NCBI GenBank assembly: GCA_017451425.1
Contig: JAFSPP010000029.1
Coordinates: forward strand, 1-64,000
DNA from: Clostridia bacterium
GTDB lineage: Bacteria; Bacillota; Clostridia; Oscillospirales; Acutalibacteraceae
Direction of reading: 5' to 3'
DNA: 64,000 nucleotides
Made by a program: the position numbers and the translations under genes
The notes under the pieces: model-generated
What the model saw: only the letters and a program-made list of their open reading frames with translations
Databases searched by the model: none
Told to the model about the DNA's origin: nothing
In this document: piece after piece, positions 7,555 to 57,768 of the stretch
Numbering within the stretch: position 1 is the stretch's first letter
How the letters are laid out: the number at the start of each line of letters is the position of its first letter

Positions 7555-7573
7555 AATTGGAGATGAGACTGAA

Positions 7574-8497
7574 ATGGCAGTAACAAAGACTGAATTCACC
7601 TACACATCGTCAGTCGGTGACCTTGAAATCCGCGCGGTAAAGTGGATTCCCGAGAACGCGAAGGCTATCTTCAACATAACTCACGGTATGGCAGAATATA
7701 TCGATCGTTATGAAGGCTTTGCAGAGTTCCTTGCGGAGAATGGCTATGCCGTATACGGCCACGACCACATCGGCCACGGCAAATCAATTTCCGACAAGTA
7801 TAAGCCCGGCTACTTCGGCGACAAGAATGTCGAAGGTACTGTGTTTGTAGATGATAACAAACTTATTGTCGACATAGCAAAAGAGGAGAACCCGGGCCTT
7901 CCCGTATTCTTCTTCGGCCACTCCATGGGCTCTTTTGTAGCAAGAAAGTATATCGCCCTTTACGGTGAAGAACTCAAGGGCGCAATTGTCTGCGGTACGG
8001 GCGGACCCAACCCCGCAGCCGGCGTTGCCATCCTTCTTGCAAGCCTTATCGGCAAGTTCAAGGGACTTGAGTCCGACGGAACTTTCATCAACAATGTTGC
8101 TTTCGGCTCATACAACAAAATGACAGACAAGAGAACAGGCTTTGACTGGCTCACAAAGGATGAGGCTATTGTTGACAAATACATCGACGATCCTCTCTGC
8201 GGTTTCCTCTTCTCAAATCAGGGCTTCAAAGACATGCTCGGCATGCTCAAGTTCGTAAACTCAGCTGACTGCTATGCGAGCACATCTAAGGAGCTTCCCA
8301 TCCTCCTCATCGCCGGCGCCGAGGACCCCGTAGGCGAGTACGGCAAGGGCGTTGAAAAAGTCTGCGAAGCATATAAGGCAAACGGCAACCCGGTAGAGTG
8401 CAAACTTTATGAGGGTGACAGACATGAAATCTTGAACGAGTTTGACAAGGAGACAGTCATGAACGACATCCTTGCATGGCTTGATAAAAATGTCTAA
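7574..8497 (+). CDS. Alpha/beta hydrolase (monoacylglycerol-lipase/S33-like)
   Basis: About 307 residues from ATG 7574, preferred over ATG 7538 because GGAG precedes it and the extra residues (KRTIKIGDETE) are not family-like. The oxyanion and nucleophile region reads GHDHIGHGKS then GHSMGSF (nucleophile Ser). The acid is probably the Asp of AGAEDPVG and the base is His of GDRHEIL. The fold matches Hydrolase_4 lysophospholipase/monoglyceride-lipase enzymes. No signal peptide is present, so it is cytoplasmic. The true substrate cannot be read from sequence. The next ORF begins inside its 3' end. Confidence 0.85.
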   Translation: MAVTKTEFTYTSSVGDLEIRAVKWIPENAKAIFNITHGMAEYIDRYEGFAEFLAENGYAVYGHDHIGHGKSISDKYKPGYFGDKNVEGTVFVDDNKLIVDIAKEENPGLPVFFFGHSMGSFVARKYIALYGEELKGAIVCGTGGPNPAAGVAILLASLIGKFKGLESDGTFINNVAFGSYNKMTDKRTGFDWLTKDEAIVDKYIDDPLCGFLFSNQGFKDMLGMLKFVNSADCYASTSKELPILLIAGAEDPVGEYGKGVEKVCEAYKANGNPVECKLYEGDRHEILNEFDKETVMNDILAWLDKNV

Positions 8498-8960
8498 ACA
8501 GGAAAAAGATATTCTTCTTAAGACGAAGCCCATGGGTTTCGATAAGAAGAAAACAATGGATTATATTGAAAAAATCCAGCTCGAGAACGAGGGCTTAAAG
8601 CGTCAGGTCCAGGACCTGAGTGCTAAGCAAAGTGCGCTTTTAAAGGAGAATGCCATGCTTCGGGCACGCCTTGATGTCGGCTCCGGTTCGGCTGCCGATA
8701 TCCCCGCTCCGGCTCAGGATTTTGAACCCGACCCCGAACCCGATCTTCTCGACGGATACGGTGAGCAGGTCAGCAAGCGCATAGTGAGCGAAAACCTTTC
8801 GGATCTCGATGCTGACCCCATGTTCGAAATGCCGTATGAGACCGTCGGTCATTCGTCACACAATCACAATGTTGAAAAGCGTGACGGCAAGACCATAGTC
8901 ACCTCGAAGAAGAATGTTGAGAAACGCGGCGGAAAAACATACATCAGCTCCAAGAAATAA
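8490..8960 (+). CDS. Coiled-coil protein with duplicated basic C-terminal motif
   Basis: About 156 residues from ATG 8490, which overlaps the hydrolase stop (TAA 8495-8497). Residues 8-50 (MGFDKKKTMDYIEKIQLENE...LKRQVQDLSAKQSALLKEN) form a heptad-patterned coiled coil recalling the N-terminal part of DivIVA/GpsB-type proteins. An acidic, proline-rich linker follows. The C-terminus repeats a unit, NVEKRDGKTIVTSKK then NVEKRGGKTYISSKK. Family and function are not recognised. A role as a cytoplasmic scaffold is conjecture. Confidence 0.65.
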   Translation: MSKQEKDILLKTKPMGFDKKKTMDYIEKIQLENEGLKRQVQDLSAKQSALLKENAMLRARLDVGSGSAADIPAPAQDFEPDPEPDLLDGYGEQVSKRIVSENLSDLDADPMFEMPYETVGHSSHNHNVEKRDGKTIVTSKKNVEKRGGKTYISSKK

Positions 8961-8971
8961 TTGAAAAGGAA

Positions 8972-40915: not shown

Positions 40916-43114
40916 ATGACTGTAGCGCGCGTCGCCGTGCAGAATGCGGCTTATCATTTCGATGAGCTTTACAGTTATGCCGTGCCCGAGGGAAAGAACG
41001 TACAGGTCGGCTGTCGTGTCATGGTGCCGTTCGGCAAGGGTGACGCGGCACGGCAGGCAGTGGTCATCGAAATGACAAGCGAAGACGAAGGGGACACACC
41101 GCTTAAAAATGTGGGCGCTGTCCTTGACGAGACACCGCTTTTTGACGACAAGATGATCCGTCTTGCGCTCTTCATGAAAGAGCGCACATTCTGCACTGTC
41201 TACGACGCGCTTCGTACAATGCTCCCGGGGCTCTCTCACAAGCCCGCGGACGCCACCGTGAAGATGGCGAGGCTCACGGGCGAGGAACTCCCGAAATACA
41301 CCGACAAACAGCAGGCTGTAATTGACTGCCTGAAGGGCACGACGGGTGAAATTTCCGTCAAGGAGATCATCTATTTCACCGGTGTCTCTGCGGCGGTTGT
41401 CGACAACCTGAGAAAACGCGGTGTAATCGAATACTATGAGAAGGAGGTCTTCCGCCGTCCCTATGAGGAAGAGGCGACAGAGACCGAGAGAGTGAAACTC
41501 TCAAAGAGCCAGAAGAATGCCTTTGACAACATGATGAACATGTTTGAAAACGGCGGCGGCACGAGCCTTCTCTACGGTGTCACCGGAAGCGGTAAGACCC
41601 AGGTCTATCTGCGTCTCATAGACGAGGTGGAGAAGACCGGACGAGGCATAGTCGTCATGGTCCCCGAAATCTCCCTGACACCACAGACACTCAGTATTTT
41701 CCACAGGCGCTACGGTGACAAGGTGGCCGTCTTCCACAGCGCGCTCTCTGACGGAGAGCGTCTTGACGAGTGGAAACGGGTCAGAAAAGGACTTGCGAAA
41801 ATCGTCGTAGGTACGCGGTCTGCCGTTTTTGCGCCCTTTGAAAAACTCGGCCTCGTCATAATAGACGAGGAGCAGGAGCACACGTACAAGTCCGAGCAGA
41901 GCCCGCGCTACCACGCGAGGGACATAGCGAAATACCGCTGCGCCGAGGACGGTGCTCTTCTCGTGCTCGCTTCCGCGACGCCGAGTCTCGAGACATATAC
42001 TCTTGCCAAAAACGGCAAGTATGCCCTAAGTGTCCTGACGGACAGGTACGGCTCCGCCGAACTTCCGACGGTCGAGACCGTCGACATGTGCCGCGAGCGC
42101 TTTGACGGCAACAAGAGCGAGATAAGCAGAACGCTTCTCTCGGCACTCATAAAGAACTTCGAAGAGGGACATCAGTCAATCGTCCTGCTCAATCGCCGCG
42201 GCTACCACACATACGCCGCGTGTGACTCATGCGGTGAGGTAATGATGTGTCCCAACTGCAGCATAGGACTGACATACCACCGTCATTCAAACCGCCTTAT
42301 GTGCCACTACTGCGGCTACAGCGTCCCGTTTACCACCGTCTGCCCCTCCTGCGGGGCAAATGACGTCCGTTACACCGGAGCCGGCACGCAGCGCTTTGAG
42401 GAGGAGATAGACAGGCTTCTTCCGGATGCCCGCATCCTGAGAATGGATGCCGACACAACCCTCCAGAAGCACTCATATGACGAGAAACTCGCGGCTTTCA
42501 GAAACCACGAGTACGACGTGATGATAGGCACGCAGATGGTCGCCAAGGGCCTTGACTTTGAAAATGTCACCTTAGTCGGCGTCCTCTCGGCGGACCAGCA
42601 GCTCTACAATGACGACTACAAGTCGATGGAAACTACATTTGACCTCCTCACACAGGTCATAGGCAGGGCCGGAAGGGGCAAGTACCCGGGCCGCGCCATC
42701 ATCCAGACAATAAAGCCGCAAAACGACGTAATCATGCTTGCGACGCGCCAGGATTTCGATGCCTTCTACAACACCGAAATCACCATGCGCAAGGCCTGTG
42801 TCTTCCCGCCGTTTTGCAACCTCTGCTTCATCAGTTTCCAGGGAGCAAAGGAGGAAAAAGTGCTCAGGGCGAGCACGAATTTCCTGAAAAACATAGAGAA
42901 GAAAGTAAAGACGGACGAGTACAAGGACCTCAAACTCATCTGCCTCGGCCCCATGCCGGAGCGCGTGGTCAAGGTCTCGAACAAGTACAGGTACCGTCTC
43001 ACGATAAAGTGTAAAAACAATGCGCAGTTTCGCCGTTTTCTCTCGGAACTCCTGATGGATTTCGCGAGGGACAGAGAGAATTCCGGCGTAAATGCAATTC
43101 CCGATATTACATGA
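40916..43114 (+). CDS. priA: Primosomal protein N' (replication-restart helicase)
   Basis: 732 residues. The DNA 3'-end-binding N-terminus (YSYAVPEGKNVQVGCRVMVPFG) is followed by a winged helix and the helicase core with GVTGSGKTQVY (Walker A), IIDEEQEHTYKSEQ (DEEQ box) and SATPSLET. A zinc domain with paired CxxC motifs (CDSCGEVMMCPNC, CHYCG, CPSCG) splits the core, then GTQMVAKGLDF and QVIGRAGRG. It reloads the replisome at stalled forks. Confidence 0.97.
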   Translation: MTVARVAVQNAAYHFDELYSYAVPEGKNVQVGCRVMVPFGKGDAARQAVVIEMTSEDEGDTPLKNVGAVLDETPLFDDKMIRLALFMKERTFCTVYDALRTMLPGLSHKPADATVKMARLTGEELPKYTDKQQAVIDCLKGTTGEISVKEIIYFTGVSAAVVDNLRKRGVIEYYEKEVFRRPYEEEATETERVKLSKSQKNAFDNMMNMFENGGGTSLLYGVTGSGKTQVYLRLIDEVEKTGRGIVVMVPEISLTPQTLSIFHRRYGDKVAVFHSALSDGERLDEWKRVRKGLAKIVVGTRSAVFAPFEKLGLVIIDEEQEHTYKSEQSPRYHARDIAKYRCAEDGALLVLASATPSLETYTLAKNGKYALSVLTDRYGSAELPTVETVDMCRERFDGNKSEISRTLLSALIKNFEEGHQSIVLLNRRGYHTYAACDSCGEVMMCPNCSIGLTYHRHSNRLMCHYCGYSVPFTTVCPSCGANDVRYTGAGTQRFEEEIDRLLPDARILRMDADTTLQKHSYDEKLAAFRNHEYDVMIGTQMVAKGLDFENVTLVGVLSADQQLYNDDYKSMETTFDLLTQVIGRAGRGKYPGRAIIQTIKPQNDVIMLATRQDFDAFYNTEITMRKACVFPPFCNLCFISFQGAKEEKVLRASTNFLKNIEKKVKTDEYKDLKLICLGPMPERVVKVSNKYRYRLTIKCKNNAQFRRFLSELLMDFARDRENSGVNAIPDIT

Positions 43115-43124
43115 GGTAAGAACA

Positions 43125-43607
43125 ATGGCTTTGAGAAAAATCGTTACGAAAGAGGACCCGATCCTTAAGAAAAAGTGCAGACCGGTCGAGAAGTTTGACG
43201 ACCGTCTCCACATGCTTCTTGATGACATGGCGGAGACCATGTATGCCGCTGACGGCGTAGGTCTTGCCGCGCCTCAGGTCGGCATGCTCAGAAGGGCTGT
43301 CGTAATGGACATAGGCGAGGGTCTCCTCGAACTCGTAAACCCCGAAATAATCGAAAGAAAAGGGGAGCAGTGTGCCGAAGAGGGCTGCCTCTCCATACCC
43401 GGTGAATATTATGAAACCATCCGTCCCGCCTACGTGAAAGTAAAGGCGCAGGACAGGAACGGTGAGTGGCATGAGTATGAGGGAGAAGAGCTTAAGGCAC
43501 GTTGTTTCTGCCATGAACTCGACCACCTCGACGGTGTGCTCTTCACTGAGCGTTTAAACCCGAATCCGACCCCGAAGGAAGAGCGGAAAACAGCTGAGGA
43601 AGAATAA
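43125..43607 (+). CDS. def: Peptide deformylase
   Basis: 160 residues from ATG 43125 (GAGGTAAG upstream). All three metal motifs are present: GVGLAAPQVG, EEGCLSIPG and HELDHLDG. It removes the formyl group from nascent chains and is paired with fmt, whose start overlaps its stop (TAATG at 43605-43609). Confidence 0.97.
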   Translation: MALRKIVTKEDPILKKKCRPVEKFDDRLHMLLDDMAETMYAADGVGLAAPQVGMLRRAVVMDIGEGLLELVNPEIIERKGEQCAEEGCLSIPGEYYETIRPAYVKVKAQDRNGEWHEYEGEELKARCFCHELDHLDGVLFTERLNPNPTPKEERKTAEEE

Positions 43608-44527
43608 TGAGAGTAGTTTTCATGGGCACCCCTGACTTCGCCGTCCCGACACTTGTGAGACTGGCAGAGAAGCACGAAGTGGCAGGGGTATTCACACAGC
43701 CTGACAAGCCGAAGGGAAGGCATATGACGCTGACTCCTTCAGATGTCAAGATGAAGGCGGAAGAACTGAATATTCCCGTATTTCAGCCCGAGAGTTTAAA
43801 GCACGGCGAGGCCATGCCCATACTCGAGGACCTGAAACCGGATGTCATAGTCGTTGCCGCATACGGACAGATTCTGAAAAGCGATGTCCTGAATTTCCCG
43901 AAATACGGCTGTGTAAATGCCCACGGCTCGCTTCTTCCGAAGTACCGCGGAGCAGCGCCCATCCAGCGCGCAGTCATAGACGGAGAGACCGAGACCGGAA
44001 TCACCGCAATGCTCATGGATGAGGGCCTGGACACGGGCGATATTTTAAATGTCAAAAAGACTGAAATCGGCGAGAATGAGACCGCAGGTGAGCTCTTTGA
44101 CAGGCTTGCCGAACTCGCAGCCGACACCATAGAAGAGACCCTCGAAAACATAGAGAAACTCAGAAAGAGCGCAATAAAACAGGACGATGCAAAGTCCTGC
44201 TACGCGAAAATGCTCACCAAGGACGAGTGCCCGATAGACTGGACAAAAACCGCGCAGGAAATCCACAATCATGTACGTGGCCTAAGCCCCTGGCCTACAG
44301 CCACGACAACGCTTGACGGCGCAACATTCAAGGTCCACACAACAAGAAAAACAGACAGCAAAACCTCCGGAAAACCCGGTACTATAAGAACTGAAAAAGG
44401 CAGAATTTTCGTCGCTGCAGGCGACAGAAATGAGCTTGAAATAACTGAGATTCAACCCCAAAACGGCAGGAGAATGAGCGCGGAGGCGTATCTTCTCGGC
44501 CACGAACTGAAAGGAGTGTTCGAATAA
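43607..44527 (+). CDS. fmt: Methionyl-tRNA formyltransferase
   Basis: 306 residues. VFMGTPDFAVPTL begins the folate-binding domain, with the catalytic Asn-His in NAHGSLLPKYRGAAPIQ and Asp in DEGLDTGDI, and the OB-fold C-terminus reads GRIFVAAGDRNELEITEIQPQNGRRM. It formylates initiator Met-tRNA. It overlaps the next gene by 1 nt. Confidence 0.97.
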   Translation: MRVVFMGTPDFAVPTLVRLAEKHEVAGVFTQPDKPKGRHMTLTPSDVKMKAEELNIPVFQPESLKHGEAMPILEDLKPDVIVVAAYGQILKSDVLNFPKYGCVNAHGSLLPKYRGAAPIQRAVIDGETETGITAMLMDEGLDTGDILNVKKTEIGENETAGELFDRLAELAADTIEETLENIEKLRKSAIKQDDAKSCYAKMLTKDECPIDWTKTAQEIHNHVRGLSPWPTATTTLDGATFKVHTTRKTDSKTSGKPGTIRTEKGRIFVAAGDRNELEITEIQPQNGRRMSAEAYLLGHELKGVFE

Positions 44528-45237
44528 TGTATTGGGATCCTTTATATTATCTCGTCATAATCATGTTCTTCATCGCCATGGCGGCATCCAACAAGGTTAA
44601 GAGAACCTATTCGAGATATGCTCAGGTGATGAGCTCCAAGGGCATCACAGCTGAGCGCGCCGTACAGATGGTACTCAATTACTACGGCATCACCGATGTC
44701 GGCATTGAGCGTATCCCCGGTGAACTGACGGATAATTTCAACCCGAAGACAAACATAATCAGCCTTTCAGAGCCCGTCGCGGGCAGCACAAGTGTTGCTG
44801 CCATAGGCGTAGCCTGCCATGAGGCCGGACACGCCGCACAGCACGCAACGGGATATCTTCCCATAAAGATCAGAAACTCAATCGTACCTGTCTGCAATAT
44901 CGGCTCAATGCTCGGTATACCGATAGCAATTATCGGTGTCGTTCTTCAGAGCATGCAGGGTATGTTTGATCTCGGTCAGACTCTGGTTTACGTAGGTATC
45001 ATCATGTACGCCTTCGTATTCGTATTCCAGTTTGTAACCCTTCCTACGGAGCTTGACGCAAGCCGCCGTGCCCTCAAGGTAATAGAAGAACAGGGTATTC
45101 TGGAAGGTGACGAGAGAGTAGGTGCCAAGAAGGTACTTACAGCTGCCGCAATGACCTATGTCGTTGCTCTTGCAACAGCCCTTGTAAACCTGCTGAGATT
45201 TGCATCCATTTTCCTTGGAAGAGGACGCAGGAGATAA
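44527..45237 (+). CDS. Zinc-dependent membrane peptidase (YugP family)
   Basis: 236 residues. An N-terminal helix, a zinc motif HEAGHAAQH (ACHEAGHAAQHATGY) and paired C-terminal membrane helices match the M-type neutral zinc metallopeptidase family of B. subtilis YugP. Conserved NPKTNIISLSEPV precedes the active site. It commonly sits between fmt and rsmB in Clostridia. The substrate is unknown. Confidence 0.92.
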   Translation: MYWDPLYYLVIIMFFIAMAASNKVKRTYSRYAQVMSSKGITAERAVQMVLNYYGITDVGIERIPGELTDNFNPKTNIISLSEPVAGSTSVAAIGVACHEAGHAAQHATGYLPIKIRNSIVPVCNIGSMLGIPIAIIGVVLQSMQGMFDLGQTLVYVGIIMYAFVFVFQFVTLPTELDASRRALKVIEEQGILEGDERVGAKKVLTAAAMTYVVALATALVNLLRFASIFLGRGRRR

Positions 45238-45240
45238 GAT

Positions 45241-46428
45241 ATGAAGAGTGCAAGACAGTTTGCTCTTGAAACACTTCTGAAAATTGAACAGCAGAATTCG
45301 TATTCGAATTTATCAATTGCCGGTGTGCTTGAGGGGAATACCCTCGAGGGCGCCGACAAGGCATTTTTCACGGCACTTGTGTACGGTGTGCTGGAGAGAA
45401 AACTGACACTCGACTACAACCTTGAAAAATGCCTTACACAGCCGATAAAACGGCTGAAGCCGGAGGTCCTTTGTATACTCCGGCTCGGCGCCCTCCAGCT
45501 CCTGTTCATGGACAAAATTCCCGCGAGGGCAGCCATAAACGAGGCCGTCGAGCTGACCAAGAAAAACAGGTCTCAGTACGCGAGCGGCCTTGTAAATGCC
45601 GTCCTGCGCAAAATAAATGACCAAGGACTGATACTCCCGAAGGAGACGGACGAAAACTACCTTGAAATCAAGTATTCCTGCCCTCAGGAACTCATAAATC
45701 TCTGGATAAATGCATACGGAAAAGAGAAGACCGTAGGCATACTTGAACATGCCAACGGTCCGCAGAAAATATATGCAAGACACAGGACCGAAGGGCTGAA
45801 AATAATCGAAAGTCCGGATGAGCTGACAAGCGATATGCACATCCAGGACAAGTCTTCACAGCTTTGCTGCGAAGCCTTAAACCCGCAGCCCGGTGAGCGC
45901 ATATTTGATATGTGCGCGGCGCCCGGCGGAAAAACATTCACGATTGCCGAGCTCATGAACGACGAAGGCGAGGTCTTCGCCTTCGATATCCATGAGCACC
46001 GCGTAAAACTCATAAGGGCCGGCGCCGCCCGCTTGAACCTCCTCTCAGTGAGGGCACAGGTAAACAATGCGGAGCAGTACAAAGAGGCCCTCGGTCATGC
46101 CGACAAAGTCCTCTGTGACGTGCCCTGCAGCGGTCTTGGTGACATCGGAAGGAAACCCGAGATTCGTTACAAAAAAGTTAAGGATATTGAAAAGTTGCCG
46201 CTTTTACAATATAATATATTAGTTAATAGCGCGCGCTATGTTAAAGAGGGCGGAACCCTTCTTTATTCGACCTGCACATTAAACCCGCAGGAGAATGAAG
46301 GGGTGGTGAAACGCTTCCTTGACGAAGGCGCGAACTTCACCTTGAAGGAGCAGAGGACAATCTTTCCTCAGGATGAGGACTGTGACGGCTTTTTCTATGC
46401 CGTTCTCAAAAAGGAGTCCGCAGATTGA
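45241..46428 (+). CDS. rsmB: 16S rRNA m5C967 methyltransferase
   Basis: 395 residues. The NusB-like N-terminal RNA-binding domain (ARQFALETLLKIEQQNSYSNL, KAFFTALVYGVLERK) is followed by the methyltransferase with MCAAPGGKTF (SAM loop), DVPCSGLGDIGRKPEIRY and the nucleophile in STCTL. It overlaps rlmN by 4 nt. Confidence 0.95.
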   Translation: MKSARQFALETLLKIEQQNSYSNLSIAGVLEGNTLEGADKAFFTALVYGVLERKLTLDYNLEKCLTQPIKRLKPEVLCILRLGALQLLFMDKIPARAAINEAVELTKKNRSQYASGLVNAVLRKINDQGLILPKETDENYLEIKYSCPQELINLWINAYGKEKTVGILEHANGPQKIYARHRTEGLKIIESPDELTSDMHIQDKSSQLCCEALNPQPGERIFDMCAAPGGKTFTIAELMNDEGEVFAFDIHEHRVKLIRAGAARLNLLSVRAQVNNAEQYKEALGHADKVLCDVPCSGLGDIGRKPEIRYKKVKDIEKLPLLQYNILVNSARYVKEGGTLLYSTCTLNPQENEGVVKRFLDEGANFTLKEQRTIFPQDEDCDGFFYAVLKKESAD

Positions 46429-47477
46429 AAACGGATATTAAATCACTGACACTTGCCGAACTTGAAGATCTGGCAAAAGAGCTGGGGCTTCAGAAGTTTC
46501 GCGCAAAGCAGATATACGAGTGGCTTCACAGACAGTGCGCCAAGTCCTTTGACGAGATGACCAATCTCTCAAAGGAGCAGAGAGCAAAACTCGATGAGCT
46601 CTGCGAGATCAAAAACTGCAGCATCGAGAAAAAACTTGTCTCGAAACTCGACGGCACGAAGAAGTACCTCTTCAGGTTAAACGACGGTGAGTTTATCGAA
46701 TCCGTCCTGATGAAGTACAAGTACGGCTACACCGTATGCGTCTCGAGCCAGGTGGGCTGCAACATGAAGTGTTCCTTCTGCGCCAGCACCATCGACGGCT
46801 GTGTGAGGAACCTCGCCCCGAGCGAGATTTTAAGCCAGGTGTACGCCATCACCCGTGACAACAGGAAAGAGGACAGGGACTTCCGCGTCTCTCACATAGT
46901 CCTCATGGGTATGGGCGAGCCTCTCGACAACTACGAGAACGTCCTGCGTTTCCTCGAACTCATAACAAACGGGGACGGCCTGAACATCGGCGCGAGAAAC
47001 ATAAGCATCTCGACTTGCGGCATAGTCCCGAAAATCTACGACCTCATTGAAAAGCATCCGCAGTACACTCTCTCGGTGAGTCTTCACGCTCCGAACGACG
47101 AGATACGTGACAGGATAATGCCCGTCAATAGGAAGTGGAACACTGAGGAACTGCTCGAGGCCTGCAGGGTCTACACCAAACAGACAAGCAGACGTATCTC
47201 TTTCGAGTACGCCATGATGAAAGACATAAACGACACGGACGAGTGTGCAAGGGAACTTGCGAAAAGGCTGAAAGGCATGCTTTGCCACGTGAACCTAATC
47301 CCGGCAAACGAAGTCCGTGAGAATGACTATCAGAGAAGCAACAACGAGAGAATAAAGGAATTCTCAAAGATTCTCGAAGCAGGCGGCATAACCACCACCA
47401 TAAGGCGCAGCCTCGGCGGTGATATAGACGCCTCCTGCGGACAGCTCAGAAGACAATCGAAAGGAGGGGAGTCATGA
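46425..47477 (+). CDS. rlmN: Radical-SAM 23S rRNA / tRNA methyltransferase RlmN
   Basis: 350 residues. The radical-SAM cluster motif is C-NMK-C-SF-C. Other hallmarks are KFRAKQIYEWLH, MGMGEPLDNYENV and the late VRGSRGGD-like IRRSLGGDIDASCGQL with the second catalytic cysteine. It methylates C2 of A2503 in 23S rRNA. The stop overlaps the phosphatase start. Confidence 0.97.
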   Translation: MKTDIKSLTLAELEDLAKELGLQKFRAKQIYEWLHRQCAKSFDEMTNLSKEQRAKLDELCEIKNCSIEKKLVSKLDGTKKYLFRLNDGEFIESVLMKYKYGYTVCVSSQVGCNMKCSFCASTIDGCVRNLAPSEILSQVYAITRDNRKEDRDFRVSHIVLMGMGEPLDNYENVLRFLELITNGDGLNIGARNISISTCGIVPKIYDLIEKHPQYTLSVSLHAPNDEIRDRIMPVNRKWNTEELLEACRVYTKQTSRRISFEYAMMKDINDTDECARELAKRLKGMLCHVNLIPANEVRENDYQRSNNERIKEFSKILEAGGITTTIRRSLGGDIDASCGQLRRQSKGGES

Positions 47478-50400: not shown

Positions 50401-51297
50401 ATGGTAAAAAACACCCAAAACGGAACAATCATAAAAGGCATAGGCGGTTTCTATTATGTGGAAACCGCCGAAGGCATTTTTGAGTGTAAGGCCAGAGGTG
50501 TCTTCAGAAAAGAAAAAATCACCCCCATGGTGGGTGACAATGTCGTAATAACAGTAAATGAAAACACGGACAACACGATTGATGAGATAAAAGAGCGCAG
50601 GAGTTTCCTCCTGAGGCCTCCTGTGGCCAATATCGATCAATTGATAATAGTTGTCTCCTGCACACAGCCGAGACCGAATACGCTGCTTGTGGACCGTCTG
50701 ACGGCCATTGCAGTCAAAAATAATATCGAGCCCGTAATCGTCCTGAATAAAATTGATCTCGCTGACGTAGAAGATCTGAAAGATATTTACAAAAAAACCG
50801 TCTTTAATGTCATAGAGGCCTGCGGAAAGACAGGAGAGGGCACGGATGAGATAAAGGAGATACTCAAAAACAAGATCTCCGCTTTCACCGGAAACTCGGG
50901 TGTGGGCAAGTCTACATTGCTCAACCAGATAGACCCGCATCTCAATCTCGAGACAAACGAGATTTCACAGAAGCTCGGCCGCGGCAAGCACACCACCAGG
51001 GAGTGCACGCTCATAAAACTGGATGACAGCACATATGTCGCAGACACGCCCGGCTTTGCATCCCTTGAACTCTTGAAGCAGGAAGTAATCCTTAAAGAGG
51101 ACCTCCAGTACTGCTTCCCCGAGTTTGAGGACTATATAGACAACTGCAAATTCGCAACCAACTGTTCCCACACGACGGACAAGGGCTGCGCAGTTATAAA
51201 AGCAGTGGAAGACGGTATTATTTCAAAATCCCGACACGACTCATACAAGGCTTTGTACAACGAAGTCAAGGACTTAAAGGAGTGGCAGGTAAAATGA
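50401..51297 (+). CDS. rsgA: Ribosome small-subunit-dependent GTPase A
   Basis: 298 residues from ATG 50401 (AGGTGAGT directly upstream). An N-terminal OB domain is followed by the circularly permuted GTPase with motif order G4 (NKID), G1 (GNSGVGKST) and G3 (DTPG), then a C-terminal zinc domain (C-x-F-A-T-N-C-SH-TTDKGC). It is an assembly factor of the 30S subunit. In related genomes rpe and thiN follow; here an exported protein does. Confidence 0.95.
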   Translation: MVKNTQNGTIIKGIGGFYYVETAEGIFECKARGVFRKEKITPMVGDNVVITVNENTDNTIDEIKERRSFLLRPPVANIDQLIIVVSCTQPRPNTLLVDRLTAIAVKNNIEPVIVLNKIDLADVEDLKDIYKKTVFNVIEACGKTGEGTDEIKEILKNKISAFTGNSGVGKSTLLNQIDPHLNLETNEISQKLGRGKHTTRECTLIKLDDSTYVADTPGFASLELLKQEVILKEDLQYCFPEFEDYIDNCKFATNCSHTTDKGCAVIKAVEDGIISKSRHDSYKALYNEVKDLKEWQVK

Positions 51298-52304
51298 AAG
51301 TAATCAAAGCAATATTCAAAGTGCTGCTTTGCCTCGTTCTTCTGGTCGGCCTCACCGTAGGCGGCCTCAATATCTGGATAAGGACGGCAAGCGCATCATT
51401 CTATAAAAACAGCGAAAAGGAATTTCAGATCCCGGGGCTCAGCGAAGGGTTCGTCCCGAAAGGCATAACCTATGACGAAAACTCCGGATACTACTTAGTC
51501 AGCGGCAGCATGTCTGACAATTCCGCTTCGCGCATCTACACAATAGACCCCGCCACAAGCGATTTCACATATGTTGAGCTGAAGACGGCAGGCGGGGAGG
51601 CCGACACGCCGAGCGCTGCCGGCATTGCGGTTCACGGCCGTTACGTGTTCCTTTCCACGGGAACGGAACTTATAAACGTGTACAGACTCGCGGAGGTCAC
51701 GGACTCAGACTTAAGCTCCGCGACCCCGTTTGCGACCTTCACCGCCGCGAACCGCCCCGAGAGTCTCTTCATTCACAACGACTACATCTTCATGGGTGAG
51801 TACTACAACAAGGAAGGCTATGACACTCCCGGCAGTCACAAGTTTGAATCCGACAACGGTGAGCAGCTCAATGCCGTAATGCTCATGTATGATATCACGG
51901 CGCTCGTCCAGGCCCTGTCCGAGAGCGAGCAGGCCGCGCTCCAGCCGGAGGCAGCATATGCCGTGCCTGACAACTGCACCGGCATGTGCGTTTTAAAGAG
52001 CGGCCAGCTCTGCCTGTCATCCGCCAAAGGTATGAAGAGCTCAACTCTCCGTATCTACGACGACCCGTTGAAGACAAATCTCACATCCGACAACACGTAT
52101 TCCGCCTTGAACGGGGAGAAGGTACCCCTCTACTATGTCGACAGCGACAGCATGCTTAAAGAGATTTCAGTGCCTCCCATGGCACAGGAACTCGTGACCC
52201 AGGGTGACAAGATTCTTGTCCTCACAAGCGCCGCTTCGAACAAATCCATGTTCGGAAAACTGACCGGAGCAGGCACATGCAGGTCCTTTATCCCTGAATT
52301 TTAA
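51294..52304 (+). CDS. Exported propeller-like protein of unknown function
   Basis: 336 residues from ATG 51294, overlapping the rsgA stop. A basic N-terminus and hydrophobic helix (VLLCLVLLVGLTVGGLNIWI) give a signal anchor. The remainder has repeated strand pairs (FVPKGITYDENSGYYLVSGS, RIYTIDPATSDFTYVEL, GIAVHGRYVFLSTGTELINVYRL, ESLFIHNDYIFMGEYY) suggestive of a six-bladed beta propeller. No catalytic motif is visible and no family is recognised. It lies next to the prkC-rsgA run and ahead of the fibre module, which has its own promoter. Confidence 0.65.
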   Translation: MKVIKAIFKVLLCLVLLVGLTVGGLNIWIRTASASFYKNSEKEFQIPGLSEGFVPKGITYDENSGYYLVSGSMSDNSASRIYTIDPATSDFTYVELKTAGGEADTPSAAGIAVHGRYVFLSTGTELINVYRLAEVTDSDLSSATPFATFTAANRPESLFIHNDYIFMGEYYNKEGYDTPGSHKFESDNGEQLNAVMLMYDITALVQALSESEQAALQPEAAYAVPDNCTGMCVLKSGQLCLSSAKGMKSSTLRIYDDPLKTNLTSDNTYSALNGEKVPLYYVDSDSMLKEISVPPMAQELVTQGDKILVLTSAASNKSMFGKLTGAGTCRSFIPEF

Positions 52305-52370: not shown

Positions 52371-52399
52371 TTGACAAGGTAGAACTTTCGTGATATAGT
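52371..52399 (+). promoter_or_regulatory. Strong promoter of the sipW/fibre operon
   Basis: TTGACA (52371-52376) and TATAGT (52394-52399) are separated by 17 nt, one of the best sigma-A matches in the window. A second TTGACA at 52349 has no matching -10. The start is near 52406. Confidence 0.85.
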
Positions 52400-52408
52400 T
52401 CTCGTGGA

Positions 52409-52431
52409 GTGCAATATAATATATAATGCAC
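52409..52431. promoter_or_regulatory. Near-palindrome at the start of the sipW transcript
   Basis: GTGCA and TGCAC bracket an AT-rich, largely self-complementary centre (TATA/TATA), 23 nt in all, beginning about 3 nt after the predicted transcription start. It would form a 5'-terminal hairpin, or be an operator covering +3 to +26. Confidence 0.5.
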
Positions 52432-52461
52432 GTGGTATAATTCACATGGAGGTACAGCCAC

Positions 52462-53391
52462 ATGTCCGAAAATCTGAGAAAGGAAAAGCCGGCGAAAAGC
52501 GTTGGTCACATAGTGCTGACGGTTCTGGGTGTGATACTCTGTATCATCTTCCTCCCGATCCTGGTCATGAACACTATCCTGATCATCAAAGGCGCCATGG
52601 ATGACTCGAAGCCACCATCGGTATTCGGTTATACGCCACTTGTCGTTCTGTCCGGATCAATGGACGACGGCAGCGCGGATGCCATACTCGTTGGCGATTT
52701 GATTCTCGTTCATGACTGTGACGCCACAAAGCTTCAGGTGAATGACGTAATCGCATTCATGGAAGGCGACTACGCCGTAACCCACAGAATCATCGCTGTA
52801 AACGAAGACGGCACATACACCACACAGGGTGACGCCAACAACGTACAAGATGCCAACCCGGTTGCACCGGACCACGTCATCGGTAAGTACGAACGGCGCT
52901 TCCAGGGAGTGGGCAATGCAGTCCTCTTCATACAGAGCCCCAAGGGCATGCTGGTTTGCATCGGCATTCCTCTTGCACTTTTCGTCATATACGACGTAAT
53001 CAGAAGGCAAATGCTCCTCAAAAAGGAGAGAATTAAACAGGATCAGCTCAAACAAGAAATTGAAGAGCTTAAACAAAATCCTAACCAAGTTGATTTGCCT
53101 CGGGAGGTGCTCAAAAAACCTCAGGAAGAGGCCCCGGTTGATGCCGAGCCGATCGTCTTCCTTGACGATGATGACTTGGACGCACCTCAGCCCGGACCTG
53201 CGCCTGAAAGACGGCCGAACACTGAAATTCTTGAAAACAACAATACCGGAATTTCAAACAATGCCGAGGGTTTAAACAGGAGTAACGAACCTGCACCTCA
53301 AAAAGCTAAAGTCAAAATCGAGGCTCCCAAGAAAGCTGCTACGACTAAGAAGTCCACAGTTGTAAAGGTAAAAGCCTCAAAGAAAAAGTAA
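52462..53391 (+). CDS. sipW: SipW-type (ER-type) signal peptidase I with long C-terminal tail
   Basis: 309 residues. An N-terminal membrane helix (IVLTVLGVILCIIFLPILVMNTILII) precedes the catalytic serine in VLSGSM and the histidine of YAVTHRIIAV, the Ser-His arrangement of archaeal/ER-type enzymes such as SipW rather than the Ser-Lys dyad. GDANNVQD and a second helix (LVCIGIPLALFVIYDVI) follow. An unusual cytoplasmic tail of about 125 residues runs from a coiled coil through an acidic stretch to a Lys/Ala-rich end (KKAATTKKSTVVKVKASKKK). It should process the FAKY-type signals encoded next. GGAGG lies 9 nt from the ATG. Confidence 0.92.
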   Translation: MSENLRKEKPAKSVGHIVLTVLGVILCIIFLPILVMNTILIIKGAMDDSKPPSVFGYTPLVVLSGSMDDGSADAILVGDLILVHDCDATKLQVNDVIAFMEGDYAVTHRIIAVNEDGTYTTQGDANNVQDANPVAPDHVIGKYERRFQGVGNAVLFIQSPKGMLVCIGIPLALFVIYDVIRRQMLLKKERIKQDQLKQEIEELKQNPNQVDLPREVLKKPQEEAPVDAEPIVFLDDDDLDAPQPGPAPERRPNTEILENNNTGISNNAEGLNRSNEPAPQKAKVKIEAPKKAATTKKSTVVKVKASKKK

Positions 53392-53440
53392 ATCAACTTA
53401 TTCCAACTAACTATGAAACAAACCTAGGAGGTTTTTATAC

Positions 53441-54043
53441 ATGAAAAAGAACGTAATTTTCCGCATCGCTGCTATCGTGCTTATGTGCACACTCGTAACA
53501 GCTTGCTTCGCATCTTCAACATTCGCTAAGTATACAAGCACAGCAACTCTTGACAACAACAAGCTTACTGTTGCTAAGTGGGACATCAAGTACAATGACA
53601 CTCAGATCGCTACAACAACACCTACCACAGTTTCAGTAAACCTCTTTGATGAGATAAAAGATTCTGATGGTAGCGCAGAGAACGATGTATCTGCTAACCT
53701 TATAGCTCCCGGTACAAAGGGTTCTGTTGACTTCGCAGGCGTAACAAACGACTCTGAAGTAACAGCAAACGTTACAATCAAAGTTAAGTCTATTACAAAT
53801 GCTTCCAACATCCCTGTAGAGCTTAAGAAGGGCGCTACTGTTCTTGCAGCCGGCGACACAATCTACACAGGCGACGTTGCTATCGGTGCTTCCCTTGACA
53901 CAGCTACAATCGGTACTCTTGATTGGGAATGGAAATTCGAAGACAACCGTGATGCTGCTGATACCGCTCTTGGTATTGCTGCAAGAGATACTGCACCTGA
54001 GTACATTGTTGAGTTCGAAATCGTTGTTAACCAGGTAGACTAA
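53441..54043 (+). CDS. TasA/camelysin-like fibre subunit
   Basis: 200 residues. A SipW-dependent signal peptide (IFRIAAIVLMCTLVTACFASSTFAKYTSTATL) has the typical A-K-Y-T just after the cleavage region. The mature domain (about 165 residues, Ala/Thr/Val/Asp-rich, low aromatic content) has the jelly-roll strand pattern of TasA/CalY, with VDFAGVTNDSEVTANVTIKVKSI, and ends in LDWEWKF...DAADTALGIAARDTAPEYIVEFEIVVNQVD. The last part recurs in the next protein. AT-biased preferred codons and an AGGAGG site suggest high expression. Probably secreted and self-assembling into surface fibres. Confidence 0.87.
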   Translation: MKKNVIFRIAAIVLMCTLVTACFASSTFAKYTSTATLDNNKLTVAKWDIKYNDTQIATTTPTTVSVNLFDEIKDSDGSAENDVSANLIAPGTKGSVDFAGVTNDSEVTANVTIKVKSITNASNIPVELKKGATVLAAGDTIYTGDVAIGASLDTATIGTLDWEWKFEDNRDAADTALGIAARDTAPEYIVEFEIVVNQVD

Positions 54044-54238
54044 TTCGGTTCAACAACTACAAACAACACAAACACACATTAATCGCTGAACATTCAGCAT
54101 TAATCATTTAACCAAACGAGTTTAAACAATTCACAGCTAAAGTCAAATAATTAACACCGGGATGCCCCGTCGCCCGAAAGATGGGTGACGGGGCACCTTT
54201 TGTATCACAATTCCGAAAACGTAAACTTTGAGGGCACC
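54044..54238 (+). other. Intergenic segment with palindrome and attenuator
   Basis: About 195 nt without a gene. It contains the palindrome GCTGAA-CA-TTCAGC (54085-54098) flanked by direct repeats CATTAATC (54077-54084 and 54098-54105), and then the terminator-like hairpin listed separately. The first part is A/C-rich and unstructured. Confidence 0.5.
54164..54201 (+). terminator. Attenuating terminator after the fibre subunit gene
   Basis: GCCCCGTCGCCC pairs with GGGTGACGGGGC (12 bp with one G-U) around GAAAGAT and is followed by ACC-TTTT. The T-run is short, so part of the transcription should read through into the anchor gene, lowering its expression relative to the subunit. Confidence 0.8.
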
Positions 54239-55753
54239 ATGGAGAATGCTATAGATACCCGAAAAGTGAATAGAAGTCTCTTTGCATACAGAGTAGTAGA
54301 CATACACAATGACGAGTTCGGCTTTGCCCAGGACAACGTCATCTACACATATGTCACGGACTCTGATTCGAAGTCCAAAGGTACACCTTGGTTGCGTATG
54401 CAAAAGACAGGAGAGACGGGCAAGGACCGTCGTAAGTATTTCCTGTTTTTTGGAGACGAAACCGAGTATTCTGCTATTGTAGACAAACATAACGATATCT
54501 ACGATCTCGAGCACAACTATGTTGCGTCTCTCGTCCGCAGTAAGTTCATAATCATCCTCTTCCTTTTCATCGCAGGTGTAATCCTGCTGACCGGTCTCGC
54601 CATGTACCTTGGCGGTTCCATGATTATGAATACAACCTCACCGTTTTCCGAGGATAAGACAATCCATCTTGATGACGGTGATGACAGGGGCGGAAAAGGC
54701 TCTGAGACGGTCGATATCGACATTTTTGATCCGATTAACGAGCAAGTCATTGACGATCGCAAAGCTCCCATAAATGACGCGAAAAACGATATTGACGACA
54801 TAAAGAACAAGCCTGTTGATATTGACAACCTTGCAGATGCAAGACAGGCAGCAATAGATGCCATAAAGAGAGCTGCAGAACTTGCCAAGAAGGCGATAGA
54901 CGAGACTGAAGATCTCACTCCGGCCCAAAAACGTGAACTCAAGGCCCGCATAGATGATGAGGCAGATTCTGCAATCAAGAATATTGAGGAAGCCTCAACA
55001 CTTAAGGAAATTAACGATGCCCGTGACAAGGGTCTCGATGAAATCCAGGATGTCCTTGATGACGGTATAGCACAGGCTTTCGTAAACCGTTATTGTTCCG
55101 GTGACGACAACGATCCTTACGACAAGAAGGACGACAAGGTCACAAAGGATAACGCCAATCAGATAATCAGCGGTCAGAGGGATTATGACAACCTCACCAA
55201 CAAGCAGAGGGAAAAGGTAAACAAGATAATCTATCTTCCCACTGATCCCGAAGACAAAAACGGATATGACCGCGGAGAAGATACATACAAGAACTATCCC
55301 GAAATGCTTCGTGACGCAAAAGAAGCCATAAGGGAACCCGATGCCCACGGCAGTCTTCTTCCGAAGAAGGCCCAGGAATACCTGGTATGGCCTGGTGCCG
55401 AAGGCAGATTCGTCTTCTACGTACAGAATGACGGTGACAAGTTCCTAAACTATGACCTTCTCTTCAGGGAAGCAAACCCTGACAATGTACCGCTTCGCTT
55501 CAAGGTAATCGTAAGTGCTGACACAGATGAATACCTTGTAGGCGGCCCCGGAGATAACTGGGGCGACTCCGCCGCTCTGAATGACGCCACACGCGTCATA
55601 GAGCCCGGTGAAATCGTTCAGTACAGAATTGAGTGGCAGTGGCCGGATGACGGCACACAGGACGCCAGAGACACCGACATGGGTATCTCCGCCCGCGCAC
55701 AGACAATTCAGTACGTACTTCAGGCGGAGGTCCGCTTCGAGGAAATCGTATAA
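54239..55753 (+). CDS. Membrane-anchored protein with helical spacer and TasA-like C-terminal domain
   Basis: 504 residues from ATG 54239 (GAGGG upstream). An earlier GTG at 54185 lies inside the attenuator and is rejected. Residues 1-102 have no signal and should be cytoplasmic. A membrane helix (IIILFLFIAGVILLTGLAMYL) is near 105-125. Outside come an acidic linker, a helical region with DUF1542/FIVAR-like repeats (DNLADARQAAIDAIKRAAE, LTPAQKRELKARIDDEADSAIK, LKEINDARDKGLDEI) and a charged second spacer. The C-terminal beta domain ends IEWQWPDDGTQDARDTDMGISARAQTIQYVL, matching the last strand block of the preceding fibre subunit. I infer a fibre anchor or nucleator, analogous to TapA in role but not in sequence. 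Confidence 0.7.
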   Translation: MENAIDTRKVNRSLFAYRVVDIHNDEFGFAQDNVIYTYVTDSDSKSKGTPWLRMQKTGETGKDRRKYFLFFGDETEYSAIVDKHNDIYDLEHNYVASLVRSKFIIILFLFIAGVILLTGLAMYLGGSMIMNTTSPFSEDKTIHLDDGDDRGGKGSETVDIDIFDPINEQVIDDRKAPINDAKNDIDDIKNKPVDIDNLADARQAAIDAIKRAAELAKKAIDETEDLTPAQKRELKARIDDEADSAIKNIEEASTLKEINDARDKGLDEIQDVLDDGIAQAFVNRYCSGDDNDPYDKKDDKVTKDNANQIISGQRDYDNLTNKQREKVNKIIYLPTDPEDKNGYDRGEDTYKNYPEMLRDAKEAIREPDAHGSLLPKKAQEYLVWPGAEGRFVFYVQNDGDKFLNYDLLFREANPDNVPLRFKVIVSADTDEYLVGGPGDNWGDSAALNDATRVIEPGEIVQYRIEWQWPDDGTQDARDTDMGISARAQTIQYVLQAEVRFEEIV

Positions 55754-55804
55754 TTTATTGTTTTTTATAAAATTGACTTAAAATTCTGAGAAAGGAGGGA
55801 CAAT

Positions 55805-56521
55805 ATGCCGCCGCGTAAGAATTCAAACATAGAAAGCATTACACAGGAATATATTGATGGCGCCGTAAAGGTGCACGTCAAGGCATCAGAAGTTCCTCCC
55901 AGACAGAATCTGAACATATCCTTTAAAGACGCAGATATGCTCGGTGACGAAGTAACCCTCTCCAACCAGGAGGCTTACGAGGAGAGCCACGGCAAGATCT
56001 ACGAAATGACCCATAACAACACCGTTCCTTGGCGTAACTGGGCCTTTTATCTCATTCTCCTCTCAATGCTCACCGTCTGCTTTACATTCGCTAAATACGC
56101 CAGCTTCGCTTCCGGCGATGCCCAAACCGCCGTTGCAAGCTTCAATGTATCTGTTATAGGCTCGGCTGCTTCAACTGCAACTATAGGCGTAGATCCGACT
56201 TCAATCACGGATCCGGGTGATGGTACCGGCAACATAAGTGTAACTTTCGCTGCCGACAGCCCTGAGGCTGCAACTGCAACAATTACTTTTAGTGTTACGA
56301 ATAATAGTGATGTTACGGTAAAAGTTTTAAATCCTAATTGGAGTAGTCCAAATAATTACCATAGCGTTAGTTTTTCGGGTTGTGGTAATAATATTGCTGC
56401 GCACGGACAGGGCACTTTTACTATGACCATTACAAAGTGTGATAAAGATAATTTCCCGGCAGGTCAATCAACAGTTAGTGAAACCGGCACACTTACAATT
56501 CAAATAGATCAGGTTGACTAA
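55805..56521 (+). CDS. SipW-type exported protein with N-terminal cytoplasmic extension
   Basis: 238 residues. An N-terminal region of about 78 residues, polar and without a signal, precedes the membrane helix NWAFYLILLSMLTVCFTFAKYASFAS. Its F-A-K-Y-A is the SipW/TasA-type processing region. The mature part (about 140 residues) is Thr/Ser/Asn-rich and beta-patterned (GNISVTFAADSPEAATATITFSVTNNSDVTVKVL) and ends LTIQIDQVD, like the fibre subunit's EIVVNQVD. It is probably a minor fibre component. From about 56280 the codon use becomes AT-rich, unlike the first two thirds. GAAAGGAGGG precedes the ATG. Confidence 0.72.
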   Translation: MPPRKNSNIESITQEYIDGAVKVHVKASEVPPRQNLNISFKDADMLGDEVTLSNQEAYEESHGKIYEMTHNNTVPWRNWAFYLILLSMLTVCFTFAKYASFASGDAQTAVASFNVSVIGSAASTATIGVDPTSITDPGDGTGNISVTFAADSPEAATATITFSVTNNSDVTVKVLNPNWSSPNNYHSVSFSGCGNNIAAHGQGTFTMTITKCDKDNFPAGQSTVSETGTLTIQIDQVD

Positions 56522-56581
56522 TCAACTTGACTTTTAGCACACCCACAAACCCCGGCAAATTTTATCTGAAAGGGCATAAAC

Positions 56582-57397
56582 ATGGAGACTACAAAGCGCC
56601 CAAGAATTATATATTTGTTGCTTGCAGCTATGTTTATCGTAACTGCCGCTGTGGCTATGCCCACAACTAATGCGAAATACAGCACAACAAAAACTTACAA
56701 TATTGCGATTCAAAGCATAGTTAAAAATAAAAGTTATAGAGTCGTAAGAACAACTGCAGTAGATAAAACCGTAAATTTCTCGCCTAAATACGACAGTGCT
56801 ACAGATACAAAAATACCTTCATCTGTATCATCATTTATTGCAAACACTACTAATTCCAATACAGCTCCCGTTTATATCTTTTGGTCCGATCAGTCGTATA
56901 CAATTGATGGTAAAACCTATAGCAATAGTTACACCAGAGAGAAATTGGATGGTTCCACTACGTATCACTATAAAGGAACTGCTATTGAAAACTTTATAAA
57001 AACGAATTTTAATGCAACAAAACTGAATGATGAAATCACAAATCATATTGTGACAGGATCGAGGTTTTATGGTAGTTCCACCTATACGTACACAGTCGGT
57101 ACAGATTTAACTGAGGGTTGGTACTATATTAAGATACCGTATTACAAAGCACTTGGAGGCTATGGTGTATTAGCTCGTAATACAAGGTATTGTTTTTCTT
57201 TGTTCTATCTGCCTGCAGCTCAGGTTGATTCATATGAGAATGACCTTCAGCTGAATCCGGAAAAGATTGCAATGTTTAGTGGCGGAAGGATTGTATTTAC
57301 GCTCGAAGAAAACGGCTTTATTGTTGATCAGTATGCAGCTGCTACCAAAATTGTTTTCAGTCAAGCAAGGTTTACAACCGAAGAGGTTCCGGCATAA
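56582..57397 (+). CDS. AT-rich exported protein with SipW-like signal
   Basis: 271 residues. The signal IIYLLLAAMFIVTAAVAMPTTNAKYSTTKTYN carries the A-K-Y-S-T processing signature seen in SipW substrates. The mature part is rich in Tyr, Thr, Ser and Asn, has many short strands (TYTYTVGTDLTEGWYYIKIPYYKALGGYGVLAR) and matches no family I recognise. GC content is clearly lower than in flanking genes, and this continues from the last third of the gene before. It is the last gene before a strong terminator. I infer an adhesin-like or tip component, with low certainty. Confidence 0.62.
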   Translation: METTKRPRIIYLLLAAMFIVTAAVAMPTTNAKYSTTKTYNIAIQSIVKNKSYRVVRTTAVDKTVNFSPKYDSATDTKIPSSVSSFIANTTNSNTAPVYIFWSDQSYTIDGKTYSNSYTREKLDGSTTYHYKGTAIENFIKTNFNATKLNDEITNHIVTGSRFYGSSTYTYTVGTDLTEGWYYIKIPYYKALGGYGVLARNTRYCFSLFYLPAAQVDSYENDLQLNPEKIAMFSGGRIVFTLEENGFIVDQYAAATKIVFSQARFTTEEVPA

Positions 57398-57425
57398 TGG
57401 AATAAGTTTTTTGCGGGTCGCAGAT

Positions 57426-57460
57426 GCACCCTGCTCGGGTTGAGCAGGGTGCTTTTAATT
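57426..57460 (+). terminator. Terminator of the fibre operon
   Basis: GCACCCTGCTC pairs perfectly with GAGCAGGGTGC around GGGTT and is followed by TTTTAATTT. Confidence 0.93.
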
Positions 57461-57523
57461 TGTGCAAAGTGCTACATCGCATAGGGAAAACAGGTATAAA
57501 CGGTACGGATTTTGTGTTTAAGG

Positions 57524-57600
57524 AAATAAAAAGCACAGAACCTAGTCCCGGTGTCAGTCTAGCTTAAAAGAGCTAAGTGGATCACCCATCGGTTCTGTGT
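57524..57600 (-). ncRNA. Structured small RNA of unknown family, with own promoter and terminator
   Basis: About 77 nt on the minus strand. Its ends pair in a 9-bp stem, CACAGAACC (57599-57591) with GGTTCTGTG (57542-57534), followed by C-TTTTT-A-TTT, an intrinsic terminator. Inside are a GGTG/CACC helix, asymmetric internal loops containing TGAT and CTGA, and a TAGCT/AGCTA hairpin with a CTTTTA loop. It does not fit tRNA, SRP RNA, tmRNA or a riboswitch I know. No open reading frame of note is present. A trans-acting sRNA is one possibility. Confidence 0.6.
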
Positions 57601-57606
57601 GTCTTA

Positions 57607-57635
57607 AGTGTAGCATAGCTTATACCGGTTGTCAA
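57607..57635 (-). promoter_or_regulatory. Promoter of the small RNA
   Basis: Minus-strand TTGACA (57630-57635) and TACACT (57607-57612) are separated by 17 nt, placing the start at about 57600, exactly where the outer stem begins. Confidence 0.7.
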
Positions 57636-57768
57636 ATCATGTGTTAGATTCTGTTTCATTATATATGTTTTATTATTTATATTGATTTTAAAGGGGGATG
57701 AGTTTATAATATTATCGTGTAATTTTGCCTTTTTTTAAGGAATATGAAAAGTTTGCGAGGAATTCTAT
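57636..57768 (+). promoter_or_regulatory. Upstream region of the pilB-like gene
   Basis: AT-rich leader. A TATAAT at about 57705 and neighbouring TATATTGAT are possible promoter elements, but no clear -35 at 17 nt is visible. GAGGAATT 8 nt upstream of ATG 57769 is the ribosome site. Confidence 0.4.

Follow-up and report, generated by a model that had tools for sequence, protein, structure and literature searches.

A new SipW/TasA-type operon variant of Clostridia with a subunit-like candidate base for a proposed donor-strand fibre

A stretch of 64,000 nucleotides from a Clostridia bacterium (contig JAFSPP010000029.1, positions 1 to 64,000; the window) carries an operon of five genes that is a new variant of the SipW/TasA type. 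The genes encode a SipW-type signal peptidase, a major subunit that is probably TasA-like, a membrane-held protein with a domain related to that subunit (the anchor), and two further proteins, p4 and p5. We favour, with some confidence, a reading in which the products form a SipW-processed, TasA-type donor-strand fibre whose tip only donates a strand, whose shaft units both donate and accept, and whose base only accepts, with growth proceeding from the tip to the anchored base. As judged from sequence, a partner consisting of the subunit core without a SipW-released N-terminal strand also follows the subunit gene in other Clostridia and is newly recognized here; no anchor of this kind was found described in the open-licence literature, subscription papers lying outside that search. 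The five genes are as follows.

52462 to 53391, forward strand: SipW, an endoplasmic reticulum (ER)-type signal peptidase I (TIGR02228, Ser/His motifs)
53441 to 54043, forward strand: major subunit, 200 residues, with signal peptide, A-K-Y site, mature TasA-like beta-sandwich predicted with AlphaFold and Foldseek, and C-terminal QVD
54239 to 55753, forward strand: anchor, 504 residues, with N-terminal domain of about 97 residues, membrane helix, and subunit-like domain interrupted by helices
55805 to 56521, forward strand: p4, with cytoplasmic N-terminus, membrane helix with A-K-Y at residues 96–98, subunit-like mature part, and C-terminal QVD
56582 to 57397, forward strand: p5, with signal peptide bearing A-K-Y, short strand, and non-subunit domain

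The operon and its SipW substrates

The five open reading frames listed in a preliminary description of this DNA were all confirmed at these coordinates, in the order sipW, subunit, anchor, p4, and p5. They are real, ordered, and conserved, and the same promoter and gene order are seen again in the genus Candidatus Limimonas (Acutalibacteraceae), near which, and near Ruminococcaceae bacterium UBA1227, the genome of the window lies. The data are metagenome-assembled genomes (MAGs), and the alignments are of low depth. The order from sipW to p5 is identical in the genus genomes G001, G002, and G010 and is kept in G007 and G008, where the anchor is shorter and a second sipW lies 3′ of p5. A sipW search matched 9 of the 11 genus genomes. 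Contigs break inside the subunit gene in G006 (end of C48) and inside sipW in G009 (start of C10) and G005 (start of C42), as would be expected if strain variation at the locus breaks assembly. A scan of 84,980 species, with one genome per species, returned 5 loci, all from the window's own group, and the genes co-occur both in the genus and in other Clostridia.

The peptidase scores 73.4 bits against TIGR02228, above the cut-off of 51.85, and 89.1 bits against the SipW model NF046067, below the cut-off of 190. The motifs around Ser66 and His108 are conserved in all seven genus SipWs, to which this statement is limited, since the motif pattern proved too strict beyond the genus (13 of 26 loci). 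The sipW gene adjoins those of its A-K-Y substrates, and the A-K-Y site follows a hydrophobic helix in the subunit and, as had been claimed for two of the further envelope proteins, in p4 and p5. Together with the TasA fibre as the first Foldseek match of the subunit, these results support the proposal of a SipW-centred operon for a TasA-like fibre. A second SipW-like peptidase is encoded in the window's own genome (G000 contig C48, 41594–42340; L158:5595–6341), beside type IV pseudopilin-like genes, and more distant SipW clusters occur in loci L104, L105, and L107.

The AlphaFold model of the subunit has a predicted local distance difference test score (pLDDT) of 87.6 and a predicted template modelling score (pTM) of 0.71. 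Its first match in a Foldseek search of the PDB is weak, namely the TasA fibre 8aur_A (E 0.017, prob 0.89). In structural alignment with VIA-align, it matched FimH residues 160–279 (Z 6.6), CsuA/B (Z 6.2), truncated FimG (Z 5.7), and an archaeal bundling pilus (Z 5.5); these matches to pilin domains, among them those of donor-strand pili, all have Z < 8 and are suggestive only. A sequence search of the PDB with the subunit returned nothing. The prepilin peptidase motif of type IV pili was not found in the subunit, whose N-terminus is a SipW-type signal peptide, and no Pfam pilin model matched it. The subunit has a single membrane helix, at its N-terminus, and ends in NQVD, without a C-terminal sorting signal; across an alignment of 23 subunits, position 198 is Q in every one, whereas at position 200 there is D in 19 of them, N in 3, and A in 1. 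Position 30 is K in 21 of the subunits and R in 2; K30 and Q198 would be the conserved candidates if subunits were covalently linked.

The anchor contains a domain homologous to the subunit

The anchor comprises the following parts.

54530 to 54634, forward strand: membrane helix (model helix 98–132)
54647 to 54733, forward strand: first strands of the subunit-like domain, residues 137–165 (TVDIDIFDP, compared with TVSVNLFDE in the subunit), from the model range and a profile test
54767 to 55231, forward strand: helical DUF1542-like insertion, residues 177–331 (PF07564, E 8.5e-11), not present in the G007 and G008 anchors
55388 to 55750, forward strand: rest of the subunit-like domain, residues 384–504, from hhalign to the subunits

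By sequence comparison, the C-terminal domain of the anchor is homologous to the subunit, in agreement with the preliminary description, which had proposed that a partner tethered to the membrane carries such a domain. Searching the whole genome of the window with the subunit as query retrieved the anchor C-terminus (E 2.6e-4, 32% identity), and hhalign aligned the domain with the subunits at 98.3% probability (E 2.2e-14) over subunit columns 87–195. The AlphaFold models of the two also agree in the succession of their elements, with a helix placed between the final pair of strands. Furthermore, the anchor sandwich (model range 137–504) aligned to residues 39–234 of monomeric TasA with Z 6.8 over 127 residues. 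Other Foldseek matches of the anchor are mostly generic helical bundles and beta-sandwich domains, including toxin domains; no weight was given to these, and use was confined to the matches with TasA and the range of the model.

The helical stretch, previously taken as a plain stalk or spacer, is probably inserted within the subunit-like domain: in the predicted model, residues 137–165, which precede the helices, pack with residues 384–504; adding residues 134–177 raises the hhalign score from 87.8 to 97.0, a value reached by 1 of 200 column shuffles; and the G007 and G008 anchors have no such helices. An idea that the anchor domain simply lacks N-terminal strands was dropped, as residues 137–165 seem to supply them according to the TasA alignment and the profile test. 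The gathering score of PF07564 (DUF1542) is exceeded over anchor residues 202–272 (42.2 against 24.3 bits). Repeats resembling the insertion also occur in very long open reading frames of the genus (G002:C10, about 42888–46517, 6207 codons; G004:C38, about 92697–95042, 4279 codons; L159:3897–6617, 906 codons). No A-K-Y site follows the membrane helix of the anchor.

The N-terminal domain of about 100 residues is the most conserved part of the anchor, with a mean column identity of 71%. Its conservation, along with the feedback under which fibre genes stand in C. perfringens (PMC7395162), might indicate a signalling protein whose cytoplasmic domain reports whether fibre subunits are bound outside. 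The chance of this is slim, since the domain is confined to the genus (6 of 11 genomes; among 394 genomes of the order, only the window's own) and partners elsewhere do without it. Residues 1–97 matched no family and gave a low-confidence beta model.

Partners across Clostridia carry different anchoring devices

The subunit profile matched 22 of the 394 order genomes, in 13 of which (in one case truncated where the contig stops) the gene that follows encodes a partner combining a hydrophobic helix at the N-terminus with the subunit core. Further subunit–partner pairs came from 391 genomes sampled across the class; matches in G101, G586, G687, G695, G780, and G796 are outside the locus set. In 20 strong pairs, a model of the N-terminal part of the subunit (A2N) matched 20 of 20 subunits versus 0 of 20 partners.

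Counting the genus loci L041–L043, the 23 partners fall into 13 whose C-terminus consists of a hydrophobic helix and a basic tail (LPxTG-like), 2 with SLH domains, 7 with the N-terminal helix only (the window, L041, L042, L043, L045, L046, and L140), and 1 that is cut off. An xPxTG motif precedes the helix in 10 of the 13 partners of the first kind, and the NCBIfam LPXTG model TIGR01167 scored above its cut-off in 3 of 13 partners scanned (L047, L092, and L138). The L101 partner has three SLH domains (E 9.9e-36), and that of L137 shares 47% identity with it up to and including one SLH-like repeat, after which the contig ends. A sortase was found in 20 of the 22 partner genomes searched; the two without are the two of the SLH type (exact p 0.004), as expected if a base held by SLH repeats needs no sortase. 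The gene immediately upstream of sipW encodes a sortase in L098 and L100. We tentatively read the sortase as serving the base and not the shaft, although no srtB phenotype was seen in C. perfringens (PMC7395162).

A membrane- or wall-held base for the fibre is well supported, the strand-exchange chemistry being inferred. These partners also bear on a more conventional account, namely that of an ordinary TasA- or BsaA-like matrix system of loose secreted fibres in which the partner plays a small accessory part. The operon start and terminator are the same in C. perfringens sipW-bsaABC, deletion of bsaB or bsaC there does no more than weaken pellicles (PMC7395162), and some related loci have no visible partner. 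Nevertheless, the partner's place after the subunit gene in most subunit-bearing order genomes and the three kinds of anchoring device leave that account improbable.

A putative tip gene and exchange of cassettes

Based on sequence, p4 is a probable minor subunit, as hhalign aligned it with the subunits at 97.5% (E 8.5e-12) over the signal and N-terminal strands. The p5 protein gave no match to the subunit core and is probably a swappable tip protein. Among its relatives, PF12810 (the ALK/LTK glycine-rich domain) scores above cut-off in L041, L043, and L046 and below it in L042, DUF285 repeats are found in the protein that closes the G031 operon, and the last gene of L140 has DUF285. At 7018–8961, L140 (G462) also encodes a SipW-type subunit paralogue joined to a lipase/acylhydrolase of the GDSL type (PF13472, E 3.2e-23), which may be displayed as an enzyme on the fibre. 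Given the PF12810, DUF285, and GDSL-type domains of these relatives, the operon end appears to be a site of exchange for binding or catalytic passengers.

Comparison with the close relative G002 revealed two divergent cassettes.

53540 to 54112, forward strand: cassette 1, mature subunit and 3′ end
56680 to 57653, forward strand: cassette 2, mature p5 and the region downstream

The flanking DNA is about 96% identical, and the anchor (494/504), SipW (302/309), and p4 (228/237) are nearly unchanged. The subunits agree at 31 of 31 positions in the signal peptide and then at 77 of 168; p5 agrees at the first 33 of 33 and then at 60 of 231. Divergence starts abruptly at about 53540 and 56680, just 3′ of the A-K-Y codons, and ends at about 54112 and 57653. 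Boundaries as sharp as these suggest recombination and not gradual drift, their detail resting on one pair of MAGs. The loci L045 and L046 follow the same trend, with mature subunits 61% and anchors 84% identical. Searches with the G002 p5 in 9 genus genomes and with the window subunit in its own genome yielded no further, silent cassettes, and pilin-type switching was not found.

Promoter, hairpin, and neighbouring genes

The signals and neighbours of the operon include the following.

52371 to 52399, forward strand: sigma-70-type promoter, TTGACA-17-TATAGT with extended -10 TG, 11 of 12 consensus positions
54163 to 54195, forward strand: strong terminator-like hairpin of 14 pairs between the subunit and anchor genes
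57426 to 57452, forward strand: operon terminator with a 12-pair stem and TTTTAAT

One strong promoter had been proposed to drive the set, and TTGACA and TATAGT are indeed both found in 5 of 5 aligned genus loci; the operon is nonetheless not uniform, being interrupted by the hairpin. With the score defined as that of the strongest hairpin within 170 bases 3′ of each gene in 17 loci, a strong hairpin follows the subunit gene in all 17, with a median score of 23, compared with 10 after sipW and 10 after the anchor gene; the medians are 9 after p4 and 20 after p5 (6 loci each). In C. perfringens, where such an arrangement exists, a sipW-bsaA mRNA and a read-through mRNA were measured (PMC7395162). 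As the scores are highest after the subunit gene and match those mRNAs, partial termination is suggested at this point, and the hairpin likely lowers the expression of the genes 3′ of it. In L090, L103, and L106, a hairpin with a GTGGC loop lies 3′ of the subunit gene although no partner comes next.

This subunit-dominant architecture also speaks against the idea of SipW-dependent surface proteins that do not polymerise, which would accommodate the fact that no family model names these proteins and that the polymer is here a prediction. Its probability is very slim, considering in addition that the TasA fibre is the best structural match and that relatives polymerise.

Upstream of the operon lies a PP2C–PASTA kinase–RsgA group and downstream a GspE/PilB-type ATPase, both named by eye. 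A 340-residue membrane-anchored protein is encoded 5′ of sipW (51282–52304) and at the same position in the genus loci L041–L044.

The anchor family across Clostridia, the exchange of cassettes, the tip gene, and the hairpin had all been missed in the preliminary description.

Proposed assembly of the fibre

In TasA, the freed N-terminal strand completes the next subunit and is released only once the subunit itself has been complemented (PMC9674648), whereas TapA donates a strand and cannot accept one (PMC10151520). By analogy, SipW would cut the major subunit, and p4 as its minor variant, before K-Y and free an N-terminal strand, taken as K30–K46 in the subunit, while the sandwich of each subunit would receive the strand of a neighbour, making these units both donor and acceptor. 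In p5, SipW may free a short N-terminal strand, the remainder being an exchangeable binding domain without an acceptor groove, so that p5 would act as a donor-only tip. The 504-residue anchor would be acceptor-only, its subunit-like sandwich receiving the strand of the last subunit, because its uncleaved membrane helix occupies the position of the donor strand and leaves it unable to donate. Growth would begin with the tip and finish at the anchored base, and the hairpin after the subunit gene would provide many subunits per anchor and tip. Donor-strand anchoring, suggested at the outset, finds support as the likely logic of the system.

Nucleation, suggested alongside it, has become less likely. 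In that scheme, the anchor nucleates the fibre at the membrane and receives the first subunit, and growth proceeds away from the cell; the anchor is indeed membrane-held and subunit-like, and accessory proteins start such filaments, as do CapP in B. cereus (PMC13082335) and TapA in B. subtilis (PMC10151520). However, TapA starts by donating its N-terminal strand, and the anchor has no free strand of this kind. Initiation needs a donor, which is TapA in B. subtilis and plausibly p5 here. Moreover, TasA polarity puts an acceptor-only unit at the far end (PMC9674648), so a unit without a releasable donor strand would be the last acceptor, the base or terminator at which growth ends. We therefore regard nucleation by the anchor as unlikely and retain the tip-to-base fibre.

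Several points weigh against this fibre. To our knowledge, TasA and CalY need no wall-linked base. The structural matches are weak (Foldseek E > 0.001; Z < 8, a range in which common folds also score), none of the 23 subunits was matched by the TasA/camelysin models of Pfam and NCBIfam at E 0.01, and the anchor model is poor overall (pLDDT 66.6, pTM 0.38). The donor strand of p5 is putative. Six subunit loci (L090, L095, L099, L103, L106, and L048) have no visible partner. The SLH assignment of L137 relies on likeness to L101, its own protein being truncated where the contig stops and Pfam having reported no SLH domain for it, and the missing sortase of G574 could be a gap, that genome being 83% complete. 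Finally, neither BsaA polymers nor pellicles depended on srtB in C. perfringens (PMC7395162).

The attachment of TasA-type fibres to the cell is unsettled; TapA, formerly regarded as the anchor, now counts as a donor-strand starter. With its wall, S-layer, or membrane device, the conserved subunit-like protein described here is a concrete candidate for this missing base, and it opens the polarity of assembly to testing. The exchange of cassettes indicates that the fibre is exposed in the gut and that there is pressure on it to vary there.

Comparison with known systems

B. subtilis tapA-sipW-tasA resembles the present operon in its SipW peptidase and in a subunit with a SipW-type signal peptide and a TasA-like predicted fold. 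The cut site, predicted in the present case, also lies just before the donor strand in both, at A28-F29 in TasA and K30-Y31 here (by position, from an alignment by eye). Unlike that system, the operon has an anchor of the acceptor type together with a second protein resembling the subunit and a tip gene that is separate and variable, and the subunit sequence is too distant for the TasA/camelysin models. A TapA-like separate gene, with a complete immunoglobulin (Ig) fold and a donor N-terminus, was not found among the five genes, the anchor having no SipW site; the set differs from tapA-sipW-tasA, as had been noted.

C. perfringens sipW-bsaABCRSD likewise has sipW first, the subunit second, and a terminator with read-through after the subunit, and its BsaA forms SipW-dependent polymers (PMC7395162). 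The position of its sortase gene srtB, upstream of sipW, matches that in L098 and L100; a role at the base could explain why a sortase gene stands beside sipW and is dispensable for polymerisation. In contrast, its two-component genes bsaRS have no counterpart here. B. cereus sipW-tasA/calY with CapP shares SipW-processed heterofilaments and an accessory assembly protein, but CapP is chaperone-like with a disordered surface-binding end and is not a subunit-like anchor.

Sortase-built pili share the LPxTG-like wall signal, found on the base protein of relatives, and an exchangeable tip adhesin; however, the window subunit has no C-terminal sorting signal, and a sortase would anchor the base only. 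Chaperone-usher pili (Fim/Pap) are alike in working, with tip, shaft, and base joined by donor strands, and in the weak structural matches to the FimH pilin domain, FimG, and CsuA/B, whereas no usher or chaperone is present here and the operon is not a member of that family. Tentatively, and with less assurance than for the fibre itself, we propose that the chaperone-usher pilus has a Gram-positive counterpart in gut Clostridia, a donor-strand fibre with an exchangeable, donor-only tip adhesin, a donor/acceptor shaft, and an acceptor-only base held by interchangeable devices (sortase signal, SLH repeats, or membrane helix), whose exposed parts are swapped between lineages as cassettes with their 5′ edge at the cleavage codons.

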